Shown one piece after another: positions 19,095-22,322 of a stretch of 64,000 bases of DNA (its first letter is position 1; each line of letters begins with the position of its first letter). The position numbers and the translations under genes are program-made. The notes beneath the pieces are model-generated. The model saw only the letters and a list, made by a program, of their open reading frames with translations, was not told the DNA's origin and searched no databases. The stretch covers positions 1 through 64,000 of the forward strand of contig JAJRRU010000022.1 in NCBI GenBank assembly GCA_024279135.1. Reading direction: 5' to 3'. This stretch comes from Alphaproteobacteria bacterium. GTDB taxonomy: Bacteria > Pseudomonadota > Alphaproteobacteria > Rhodospirillales > Casp-alpha2.

Positions 19095-20339
19095 ATGTTT
19101 TCTGCCTTTGAATGGATGCTGGCCATGCGCTATCTGCGGGCACGCAGACAGGAGGGGTTTATCTCGGTTATCGCCTGGTTTTCCCTGCTTGGCATTGGGT
19201 TGGGCGTTGCCACGCTGATTATTGTCATGTCGGTCATGAACGGGTTTCGGGCCGAACTGCTGGGCCGTATCCTGGGCATCAACAGCCATTTGAGCGTATC
19301 AAGCCATACTCAGGTCCTGATGAATTATCAGGGCCTGGCTGATAAACTGGTGCAAATTCCCGGCGTTGTCAGTGTGGCCGCCATGGTCGATGGTCAGGTT
19401 ATGGCATCGATTAACGGCGCGTCGCAAGGTGCCGTCGTGCGCGGTATATCACCCGTCGATATACAAAAACGCAAATTGGTATCGGATAATATCGTGGCGG
19501 GCAGTCTGGACGATTTTGCCGGTAATGATGCCATTGCCATCGGCCAGCGCATGTCATTCAAGCTCGGGGTGCGGGTCGGTGATGCCATCAACCTGATATC
19601 ACCAAAGGGCAATGTTACGGCCTTTGGTACGGTTCCGCGTGTGCGGGCTTACAAGGTGGTAGCTTTATTCGATATCGGCATGTTTGAATACGACTCGAGC
19701 TTTATCTTTATGCCCCTGGAATCCGCCAAAATCTATTTTTTAACAAATGGCGGGGTCACCAATCTGGATGTGTTCGTGGACGATCCCGACAAGGCCAGTG
19801 CCATGATACCGGAAATCCACCGGATCGCCGGTCCGGGTACGCGGGTTCACGACTGGAAGCGCGCAAATGCCAGTTTTTTCAATGCCATCCAGGTCGAACG
19901 CAATGTGATGTTTCTGATCCTCACCCTGATCATAGTGGTCGCCGCCTTCAATATTATTTCATCCATGATCATGCTGGTTAAGGACAAGGGCCGTGATATC
20001 GCCATCCTGCGTACCATGGGGGCTACCCGTGGCACCATCATGCGGGTGTTTTTCATCAGCGGCAGCAGTATCGGCGTGATCGGAACCTTCGGCGGACTCG
20101 CCCTGGGGCTGGCATTCGCCAAGAATATCGAAACCATCCGCCAGTGGATACAAGGCTTGTCAGGCAGCGACCTGTTCGCCGCAGAAATTTATTTCCTGTC
20201 CCAGTTACCCGCCAAGGTCGACCTGGGTGAGGTTACCGCTATCGTGCTGTTGGGTCTGGGATTGTCCATACTGGCCACTTTGTACCCGGCCTGGCGTGCC
20301 GCCCGTCTCGATCCGGCAGAGGCGCTGCGTTATGAATAA
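19095..20339 (+). CDS. lolC: Lipoprotein-releasing ABC transporter permease (LolC/LolE family)
   Basis: A 414-residue inner-membrane permease with one N-terminal helix (about 22-48), a large periplasmic domain (about 50-265) and three C-terminal helices (about 275-400) of the FtsX domain. With LolD it lifts outer-membrane lipoproteins from the inner membrane to LolA. The N-terminal signature [20 protein letters not shown] is characteristic. Only one permease gene is present, so it may form a homodimer, as in many alphaproteobacteria; that makes the LolC/LolE choice arbitrary. Its end overlaps the lolD start by 8 bases. Confidence 0.93.
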
Positions 20340-21084
20340 TTCCTTTGAAGCGAGTAAGGAAATCGGCAAGGAAACGGACGCGGGTGCAGTTTTATCGCTT
20401 GATGGTATCAAACGAACCTTTAAACAGGGCCGAACCGAACTGGAAGTCCTGCGTTCGATTACCCTGTCGATCAGGCCGGGTGAACTGGTGGCACTGGTGG
20501 GGCCGTCGGGCTCGGGCAAGTCGACCCTGTTGCATATCGCCGGGTTGCTGGAAAACCCCGATGGTGGTGAAATCGTCATCTGCGGCGAAAATTGTAATGG
20601 CATGAACGATGATGAACGGACCCGTGTGCGGCGTGAAAACCTGGGTTTTGTCTATCAATATCATCACTTGCTACCGGAATTCAACGCCCTGGAGAACATT
20701 GTCGTGCCACAGATGATCGCCGGGCTATCCAAACAGAAAGCCCGTCAGCGGGCCACTGAATTGCTCGAGTATATGGGACTGAGCGAGCGGGCAAAACACC
20801 GTCCGGCAAGGCTTTCCGGCGGCGAGCAGCAACGGGTCGCCATTGCGCGCGCGCTGGCCAACGTGCCGCGTATCCTGCTGGCCGATGAACCAACGGGAAA
20901 TCTGGACCCCGACACGGCAGGCGAGGTTTTCAAGCTGTTTGTCAGTATCGCCCGTGGAGCCGGTCTGGCGGCCTTGATTGCCACCCACAATGCGGATCTG
21001 GCGGCCTCTATGGACCGGATTGTCAGACTGGAACACGGCGAGTTGATCGAGGTTATACCAAGGAGCACTAATACTGACTCATAG
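20332..21084 (+). CDS. lolD: Lipoprotein-releasing ABC transporter ATPase LolD
   Basis: A 250-residue ATPase from ATG 20332, overlapping the permease stop. Walker A is GPSGSGKST (57-65), the signature LSGGEQQR lies near 162, and the Walker B aspartate-glutamate is in LLADEPTGN. The Lol-type loop [20 protein letters not shown] is present. It powers release of lipoproteins to LolA. An oddity: codons from about 21055 to the TAG at 21082-21084 (IPRSTNTDS) lie inside the left arm of a compound palindrome, so the last nine residues look acquired. The catalytic domain is complete before that point. Confidence 0.95.
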
Positions 21085-21317
21085 AGACGGTTTCCCAAGG
21101 TTTTCGGCAAGGAACGTGCGGCGTGGCGATGCGGTGCATCGCGAGACGGGCGCGACGCTGTCCGAAAGCCTTGGGAAACCGCTGGTTCGGTCACCCATGC
21201 GGCCCGCCGGTGGGCGTCAGAAACGCTTGACGATACACCGCATCGCCAGCACGTTCCTTCCTACCCGGCAGACCGCATGGGTGATCTCTATCGGTCAGTA
21301 TTACTGCCCCTTGGTAT
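21055..21317. repeat. Compound palindromic element (MITE-like), about 261 bp
   Basis: Four complementary arm pairs are seen. Outer arms 21055-21087 and 21285-21317 match at 29 of 33 positions. Arms 21088-21107 and 21162-21181 match at 19 of 20. Arms 21111-21136 and 21236-21257 match over 22 bp with a 4-base insertion. Arms 21191-21202 and 21273-21284 match at 12 of 12. The second and third pairs interleave, so not all can form in one simple hairpin. A local hairpin (GCGATGC at 21126-21132, GCATCGC at 21136-21142) is also present. TTA occurs just outside both ends (21053-21055, 21317-21319), which may be a target duplication. It encodes no transposase. It lies between convergent lolD and azlD and supplies the lolD stop codon. 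Confidence 0.8.
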
Positions 21318-21616
21318 TAAATAAGCCCGCGCAACACAACCACGCTAACCACACCACAGATAATGGCGACCAGCGTTGGCAAGCGCCAGGCCGCCAGTAA
21401 GGTGACAACAGCCGCCAGGGTTTCTGCCGGCCCCGTCGCCAGCACCATGGGGGCGATGATCGCCGTCAGCACAGAAACCGGGACGGCTTCGAGAATGGAT
21501 TGGGTGCGCGCACTCAGGCGGTAATTTCCCAATATCCAGTACCCGGTAAAACGGGTCAGCACGGTGACTGCGGCCATGCCCACGATGACCATCCAGGGCT
21601 CCATATCAGCGCTCAT
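21317..21616 (-). CDS. azlD: AzlD-family branched-chain amino acid exporter small subunit
   Basis: A 99-residue membrane protein from ATG 21616 (also possible at 21625 or 21604), with three to four hydrophobic helices. The early segment VTVLTRFTGYWILG and the end LPTLVAIICGVVSVVVLRG match AzlD. It pairs with AzlC to export branched-chain amino acids or analogues; the substrate here is unproven. The start overlaps the end of azlC (ATGAGCGCTGA), showing coupling. Its stop codon TAA at 21319-21317 abuts the palindromic element. Confidence 0.85.
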   Translation of the reverse strand: MSADMEPWMVIVGMAAVTVLTRFTGYWILGNYRLSARTQSILEAVPVSVLTAIIAPMVLATGPAETLAAVVTLLAAWRLPTLVAIICGVVSVVVLRGLI

Positions 21617-22322
21617 GATTTTCATCTTTTTTATAACTGAGGGCTGCCGCTGCAATGCCTGCCAGCGCACCGATAAAGATGTACCAGGTGCCGGGCAACA
21701 GGTACTGGACGATCAGCGCGGTACAGGCACTGGTAATTATGGGCGACAGGCGACGGTCAGTCTTCCAGAACCCGAACACCAGGAGCAGGAAAACTACGGT
21801 AAAAACATAATCAAAACCAAGGCTTTCCGGATTTTCGATCAGGCCACCCAGTTGCGTGCCCAGATAGCTCCAGAGCTGCCAGTTGAGATAAAACGGAACG
21901 GTCAGCCCCATGACGTAGGCAACGCTCAGGGACTTGTGGCTGATGGCACGGCGCATATACATGGCCCAGTTCTCATCGGCCATGGCAAACAGGAAAACTG
22001 TGCGCGGTGCAGTGGGCATTTTTTTAACGTAAGGGGCGGCCGCCGCTCCCATGAGCACATGGCGAAGATTGACCATCAGGGTGGTGGCGATGATGGTAAA
22101 GCCGGGCAGGGGGCTCTGCCACATATCCAGAGCAATAAATTGTGAAGCCCCGGCAAACACTGCTCCGTTCATGAGCATGATTTCCCAGGTCTCCAGACCG
22201 GCCTGTTTGCCCATGGCCCCGATCAACAGGCCAAACGGCACCATGCCGATTAACATGGGAAACATATGGATCAGCCCGGCAATAAAACTTGTGCGGATGG
22301 TCTCAGGCGTTTGTGATGACAC
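21606..22322 (-). CDS. azlC: AzlC-family branched-chain amino acid exporter large subunit
   Basis: A 238-residue integral membrane protein with about six helices. The AzlC pattern is clear: GLIHMFPMLIGMVPFGLLIG (residues 15-34), then FAGASQFIALDMW (about 56-68) and LRHVLMGAAAAPY (about 86-98). Together with AzlD it forms an exporter for branched-chain amino acids. No AzlB-type Lrp/AsnC regulator is adjacent. It is divergent from the aldolase gene. Confidence 0.9.
   Translation of the reverse strand: MSSQTPETIRTSFIAGLIHMFPMLIGMVPFGLLIGAMGKQAGLETWEIMLMNGAVFAGASQFIALDMWQSPLPGFTIIATTLMVNLRHVLMGAAAAPYVKKMPTAPRTVFLFAMADENWAMYMRRAISHKSLSVAYVMGLTVPFYLNWQLWSYLGTQLGGLIENPESLGFDYVFTVVFLLLVFGFWKTDRRLSPIITSACTALIVQYLLPGTWYIFIGALAGIAAAALSYKKDENHER

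Follow-up and report, generated by a model that had tools for sequence, protein, structure and literature searches.

A mobile element inserted between convergent lolD and azlD in an alphaproteobacterium carries a core of two inverted homologous hairpins that recurs with different ends

MITEs are usually viewed as deleted transposons in which the ends are the only working parts. Passages on bacterial MITEs in PMC2229807, PMC10969869, and PMC3733652 cover Correia/NEMIS, RUP, ERIC, and Nezha; the RUP ends are described there as matching the ends of a resident IS, and for other bacterial repeats a stem-loop is described in which the 5′ end pairs with the 3′ end (PMC2229807). Within the Alphaproteobacteria, the CcrM-associated intergenic repeats (CIR) of Caulobacter and Brucella (Chen and Shapiro 2003, as cited in PMC2229807 and PMC10969869) are summarized in those passages as about 110 bp long, with two arms and a linker, no terminal inverted repeats, no pairing between the 5′ and 3′ ends, and a GANTC site at an arm's terminal loop. 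A search of the open-access literature, which leaves out most subscription journals, turned up no description of the element reported here and nothing relevant on the RIME repeats of Rhizobium.

The window (the whole stretch of 64,000 nucleotides that was analyzed) contains between lolD and azlD a sequence that the initial annotation had described as a compound palindrome of about 261 bp, with arms in the order A-B-C-B′-D-C′-D′-A′. All four arm pairs are present where it had placed them, and the order is correct. The outer pair, A (21055-21087 with 21285-21317), is 33 nt long and 88% matched; B (21088-21107 with 21162-21181) is 95% matched and D (21191-21210 with 21265-21284) 90% matched. The C/C′ pair, within 21105-21141 and 21231-21267, does consist of 22 bp and a 4-base insertion (GGCG); in C, GGAACGTGC stands at element position 57 and TGGCGATGCGGTG at position 70, with their complements at 195 and 182, respectively. 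TTA is present on either edge, at 21053-21055 on the left and 21317-21319 on the right (plus strand). Because this flanking pair is the target site duplication, the element proper runs from 21056 to 21316, which is 261 bp, and reads TACCAA...TTGGTA. Its terminal inverted repeats of about 32 bp occupy 21056-21087 (A, plus strand) and 21285-21316 (A′, minus strand), as judged from arm pairing and from the same repeat pattern in other genomes. The predicted RNA fold has an energy of −146 kcal/mol, compared with −94.7 ± 4.8 kcal/mol in 200 dinucleotide shuffles (z = −10.6), and the z score of the DNA fold is −9.3; the real fold was equaled by 0 of 200 shuffles as RNA and by 0 of 200 as DNA.

Copies of the element are dispersed. 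Used as a DNA query, it matched 14 of 61 genomes, its own included, and of 14 genomes picked among these matches, 13 contain the pattern of its end repeat; a reversed control pattern gave 0 matches. Searching loci for pairs of ends gave 78 copies, not all of them independent (the insertions at L039 and L104 are orthologous, others look orthologous, and one copy at L187 occupies two rows). Forty-eight of the 78 have an equal span of 263 bases, which is the 261-bp element plus one flanking A and one flanking T; the others are longer or shorter. An identical 3-bp TNA stands on both sides of TACCAA/TTGGTA in 42 of 77 scorable copies (TAA in 24, TTA in 12, TCA in 4, and TGA in 2), and control triplets shifted outward were identical in 0 to 3 of 76. 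Short forms include a single-hairpin copy of 160 bp at L038 and copies reduced nearly to the ends, of 67 bp in G016 and of 57 bp in G050 and G015. At G065:C202:11231-11306, two end repeats lie in tandem, 39 bp apart, probably as one element inside another. Insertions avoid open reading frames (ORFs). Of the 40 copies flanked by 700 bases on each side, 18 sit at sites that, once the element is removed, are spanned by an ORF of 150 amino acids or longer. For positions chosen at random, the corresponding count is 1289 of 1600, and for random TNA positions it is 617 of 800. The random-position control was added because the count of spanning ORFs is noisy in G+C-rich DNA. In the ORF list for the window, only ORFs that cross an edge touch the element, and no transposase gene lies inside the 261 bp. 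The element thus has the makings of a MITE: terminal inverted repeats common to dispersed copies, a short target duplication, an empty site, and no internal transposase.

Inverting the right half and aligning it to the left revealed that the interior consists of two homologous hairpins of about 104 nt each, H1 (B-loop-B′; 21088-21181, plus strand) and its inverted homologue H2 (D′-loop-D; 21191-21284, minus strand). Between the paired ends, these would make a single strand fold into a Y. Each hairpin has a lower stem (B/B′ or D/D′) and an internal loop in which AGGA on the 5′ side faces GAC on the 3′ side, at 21110-21113 and 21154-21156 on the plus strand for H1 and at 21259-21262 and 21216-21218 on the minus strand for H2. 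Beyond an upper stem lies an apical GCGATGC..GCATCGC; in H1, the apical hairpin CGATGC-GGT-GCATCG (21127-21141, plus strand) is the conserved core of arm C. AGGA is invariant or nearly so in alignments A2 and A4, and AGG is conserved at 90% or more class-wide; the conserved AGGA and GAC could form tandem G.A pairs. Since H1 and H2 are inverted homologues, each strand carries exactly one hairpin in sense form, and C and C′ are complementary because the loops of the two hairpins are homologous and inverted. On this point the initial annotation is not supported. It had proposed that the interleaving of B/B′ and C/C′ could let an RNA or cruciform switch between folds or form a pseudoknot, but in the 48 full-length copies the pairing of C with C′ is no better, or hardly better, within copies than between copies (5′ part, 0.718 in the own copy versus 0.719 across copies; 3′ part, 0.814 versus 0.786).

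The stems, in contrast, covary. In 34 aligned halves from 17 elements, the AGG, GAT, and AT positions are invariant, while two-sided changes occur at 31 of the 36 pairs. A structure-free alignment of 26 whole elements, picked by hand from the 48 full-length copies to limit near-identical rows, has 94.1% of its cells paired. Two-sided changes are seen at 67 of its 105 pairs, whereas shuffles average 33 and none of 500 reaches 67. The covariation score of these 26 elements is 0.360; shuffling gives 0.135, with none of 500 shuffles reaching the real score, and slid structures do not exceed 0.08. In alignment A4, lower-stem pairs changed on both sides number 14 of 21 in H1 and 18 of 21 in H2. When 82 rows were aligned to R1, a covariance model of one hairpin built from 34 rows, two-sided changes were seen at 36 of 36 pairs (29 on average in shuffles, with 0 of 500 reaching 36), in an alignment that is fitted to the model, leans towards structure, and includes some antisense hits among its rows. 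Each of the three stems shows strong covariation, and the recurrence of the folded core in many alphaproteobacteria, within elements whose ends differ widely, suggests that the preserved unit is the fold itself.

R1 also served to map the distribution of the core. In the window, it matched H1 at 21083-21186 on the plus strand (99.2 bits; E = 1.5e-22) and H2 at 21186-21289 on the minus strand (104.2 bits; E = 8.6e-24), both of which belong to the 34 rows used to build R1. At the threshold of E ≤ 1e-4 used for the order-wide search, 109 of 317 genomes of the order had matches. In the class sample, R1 matched 38 of 385 genomes, and 35 of the 38 lie outside the order; in the phylum sample, whose share outside the class is unstated, it matched 10 of 398, nine of them in the class and the tenth as a lone hairpin. 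Copy numbers per genome are lower bounds, with 10 to 12 candidates scored in each. Of 38 selected loci, the majority from outside the order, 32 had a plus and a minus hit with a common midpoint; L150, L222, L255, L256, L260, and L265 have one sense hairpin only. Carriers include Rhodospirillaceae and Rhodospirillales metagenome-assembled genomes. At the DNA level, Agrobacterium sp. MA01 has a plasmid-borne copy with a 263-base span and TCA on both sides, and Ensifer adhaerens has a reduced copy. The window genome itself has a decayed one-hairpin copy at G000:C12:42355-42447 (L002) and a weak R1 match at G000:C10:194103-194206 (L261; E = 4.6e-5). In a genome of a non-alphaproteobacterial class (G1018), L257 is a lone R1 hairpin (E = 1.8e-9; AGAGCGGCTAACACAGCGC...) that may reflect chance, convergence, or a distant relative.

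The same core is bounded by different ends. Besides TACCAA/TACCAC, we found GTGTGGTG, GAGCCTG, AGAGCATT/AGAGCCTA/AGAGCGTC, GGGTCCG/GGGTCTG, GCACCCAC/GTGCCCAC with AGTACT, GGTGCC (perhaps a drifted TACCAAGG), and AGGACC (probably a variant of GGGTC). A shuffle test on 300 pairs of ends gave 11 single-linkage clusters, with one weak link joining TACCA and CCCAC/AGTACT; merging by eye on the outer bases reduced these to about six types, namely, TACCA, CCCAC/AGTACT, GTGTGGTG, GGGTC with AGGACC, GAGCCTG, and AGAGC, and the last two could be one type. CTAG adjoins many of the non-TACCA copies, at one end or at both. Two end types can occur in one genome: TACCAA and AGTACT in G065, TACCAA and AGGACC in G974 (where one hairpin alone of the AGGACC copy scores), and, in the window genome, TACCAA at C31 and TAGAGCATTTCC at C17. 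The C17 copy (G000:C17:75829-75935; L223) has a Y core with ends quite unlike those of the window element. In a tree of 46 cores, chosen by hand and with the orientation of 5 ambiguous, cores with like ends tend to group together (9 groups require 11 changes, versus a shuffled mean of 17.7), although the deep forks are open. The sole well-supported pair with differing labels, L112 and L204, may reflect drift of one end from TACCAAGG to GTGCCAAGG. A core kept by paired changes, with freely drifting stems and with about six types of ends, points to a structured module under selection and not to a passive relic of one transposon. With considerable confidence, we regard the window element as a MITE of a class-wide superfamily whose members share a selected Y-shaped core.

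In the lower stem of the 48 copies, read on the hairpin's own sense strand, G.T outnumbers A.C by 48 to 12 in H1 and by 46 to 8 in H2, whereas the two are balanced in the end stem (36 to 34). The G.T pairs are concentrated: a single H1 column holds 34 of the 48, and two H2 columns hold 27 of the 46. Leaving these columns out gives ratios of 14:11 and 19:5. An excess of G.T in the sense strand favors single-strand folding over a symmetric DNA cruciform, and such folding is the best-supported clue to the role of the core. Each strand would display one sense hairpin, with AGGA facing GAC and the GCGATGC-GCATCGC cap, and the core would most likely act as folded RNA or single-stranded DNA from either strand, perhaps protecting or promoting the element itself. 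One plausible reading, though not one we would put first, is that the core is an RNA with a function for the host or the element, such as a 3′ end stabilizer, a read-through insulator, or a trans-acting RNA, carried as cargo by MITEs of several transposon types. The covariation with free stem sequence and the conserved internal-loop and apical motifs fit an RNA of this kind, as do the tolerance of G.U in each hairpin's sense strand, the intergenic preference of the insertions, and the presence of one sense hairpin per strand, so that either insertion orientation yields one. On the other side, Rfam gave 0 matches at E ≤ 1 in the window region and only three microRNA hits, far below the cutoffs, at 14 other loci. 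We rejected membership in a known Rfam family on these grounds. An essential host role also fits poorly with the patchy distribution in the order and with the absence of the element from orthologous sites of close relatives. Slightly more tentatively still, we suggest that the Y module has been carried through the Alphaproteobacteria in differently ended MITEs, which probably rely on different transposases, and that the fold, not the ends, is the lasting unit, selfish or host serving, for example as an RNA or single-stranded DNA handle for a conserved host factor.

Paired changes could also arise without selection if template switching during replication (quasi-palindrome correction) copied one arm onto the other. 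This would make arms coevolve within copies with no function needed, and in the 48 full-length copies own-copy pairing does exceed cross-copy pairing in A (0.967 versus 0.858), B (0.977 versus 0.867), and D (0.929 versus 0.806). However, such correction should erase mismatched loops, and the AGGA/GAC loop and the apical stem are nearly unchanged class-wide. In addition, the excess of G.T over A.C tracks each hairpin's own sense strand, and in 26 of 48 copies position 25 of the terminal inverted repeat lacks a Watson-Crick partner. We therefore judge template switching an unlikely account of the covariation and retain selection on the core.

A MITE without its own transposase would have to be moved in trans, here presumably by an enzyme that reads the ends of about 32 bp and cuts TNA targets. 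No transposase with TACCAA ends was found at 39 loci in six genomes (25 PF01609 and 14 PF13358 matches, all scanned) or in plasmid, phage, and viral collections, and the exact end pattern had no match in viral contigs. L117, L130, and L154, which are among the PF01609/PF13358 loci, hold separate MITE copies; at L117, the MITE lies beyond the far side of the end. TACCAA ends were likewise absent from 30 of 32 PF13340 loci, and only G065, G066, and G594 among the TACCA-type carriers had PF13340 genes, which makes this negative result a thin one. In a second set of ten genomes, in which 30 of 42 PF01609 matches were covered, the only end match of use was a fragment belonging to another Y-core MITE in G065. 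We rejected the idea that the window copy came from a plasmid or phage, as the element is unmatched in the plasmid and phage collections. L253 (G619:C33), also a PF01609 locus, is bounded by 18-bp inverted repeats that match exactly and begin with CTAGGGCCTGTGGACAAT, in a style like that of other Y-core MITE ends.

Other end types gave closer matches, in each case between two different genomes. L278 of G648 reads CTAG GGTCCGTACTCAATTAG ... CTAG and encodes ORFs of 129 and 179 amino acids with PF13340 and PF01609. The GGGTC-type MITE end of G894 has 3 to 4 mismatches in 22 positions to the ends of L278, of L292 (G648), and of L275 (G266; PF13340), while the best of 100 shuffles of G894 ends had 6. 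Beside a PF13340 gene in G594, the end at L286 has 3 mismatches in 21 positions to the AGGACC MITE end of G974; shuffled G974 ends reached 6 at best, in shuffles run on L278 and L275 only. The G912 and G608 MITE ends had 5 mismatches to IS5-like ends, which equals the shuffled minimum, and the window end had 7 in 22 at best, with a shuffled minimum of 6. IS5-family groups use CTAG-like or TNA targets. The loci with PF13340 and PF01609 would belong to that family by their domains, and the mobilizing enzyme is most likely an IS5-family DDE transposase, a suggestion that draws on end matches for a minority of end types.

Methylation is one way in which such movement might be timed. GANTC occurs at positions 22 to 26 of the terminal inverted repeat in 21 of 48 copies, 11 on the left, 10 on the right, and 0 on both, and just two other GANTC sites occur in all 48 copies; the window copy has GACTC in the left repeat only (21076-21080, plus strand). 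This one-sidedness is weak, because about 2 copies with both would be expected by chance. Dam methylation times the transposition of some IS elements, and by analogy GANTC (CcrM-type) methylation could time transposition here.

The two inverted hairpins, which are homologous and keep an internal-loop motif, also resemble paired REPs, and single-hairpin copies exist; both observations speak for a REP/BIME-like element whose single-stranded hairpins are processed by an HUH (RAYT/IS200-type) transposase. HUH transposition would not be expected to leave precise inverted-repeat ends or a 3-bp target duplication, and the element has both; moreover, another of the end types matches the ends of DDE transposons. 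We consider this origin very improbable and a MITE moved by a DDE enzyme the better reading.

The window copy itself lies between convergent genes, lolD on the plus strand (20332-21084; start inferred) and azlD on the minus strand (21317-21670). The LolD frame enters the element and stops at 21084, so that its final nine codons, encoding IPRSTNTDS, and its stop codon come from the insertion; the stop codon of azlD is the right-hand TTA. In two relatives, G001 from the same genus and G002 from the same family, azlC-azlD is likewise convergent with lolC-lolD, but the element is absent, LolD ends ..EV-stop, and the stop codons of lolD and azlD overlap. The azlD/lolD gene order of the window recurs at L032 and L033. 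Removal of the element and one TTA would leave lolD ending EVK-stop, with the azlD frame unchanged. The empty junctions in relatives, together with the reading frames, identify the window copy as an insertion into a compact stop-codon junction; it would have entered at a TTA in that junction and duplicated it. The nonautonomous mobile repeat suggested by the initial annotation is accordingly borne out by dispersed copies with the same ends, by the TNA duplication, and by empty lolD-azlD sites in two relatives, so that copies, empty sites, and the TTA duplication were all found. The outcome that the annotation had named as refuting, one copy only, kept at the lolD-azlD junction even in distant species, did not occur. 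A structured bidirectional terminator or RNA proper to this junction is scarcely credible, because despite the position between convergent genes and the very stable fold, the sequence is missing where the G001 and G002 stop codons overlap directly, has dispersed copies elsewhere, and is entered by the LolD frame. The empty sites rule out such a function as its primary identity, although a secondary termination activity is possible; the palindrome is a real, inserted mobile element and not a terminator.

The insertion accounts for a local oddity, the LolD tail of the window genome, whose nine residues exist because the insertion supplies the codons. More broadly, the interior of a MITE is here conserved by compensatory change across a class and about six end types, while the ends vary. 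Whether the success of a MITE depends on a folded RNA or DNA becomes directly testable, and the R1 covariance model can annotate many repeats that are now unmarked.

Among described systems, the bacterial MITEs Correia/NEMIS, RUP, ERIC, and Nezha, as far as the cited passages portray them, resemble the element in being short, in having terminal inverted repeats, a target duplication, no transposase, and a strong fold, and in being mostly intergenic. The window element differs from them as there portrayed in its Y with two inverted homologous hairpins and in a core common to differently ended MITEs. CIR come closest to it among the repeats described in the open-access literature searched, being similarly alphaproteobacterial and intergenic, with two arms and GANTC sites. 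The description of CIR in those passages sets them apart from an element of 261 bp with paired 32-bp ends and a target duplication, in whose family GANTC lies in the end repeat of some copies and not at a terminal loop. REP/BIME sequences, in the portion of PMC3733652 that concerns them, likewise form inverted pairs of related hairpins, but a REP is given there as 20 to 40 bp, compared with a unit of about 104 nt here that comes with ends and a target duplication. IS5-family IS elements with PF13340 and PF01609 resemble the GGGTC-type Y-core MITE of G894 in their ends and CTAG-type flank, and the AGGACC MITE of G974 in its end; they differ in that two ORFs fill their length, and the ends of none examined match the TACCAA of the window element.
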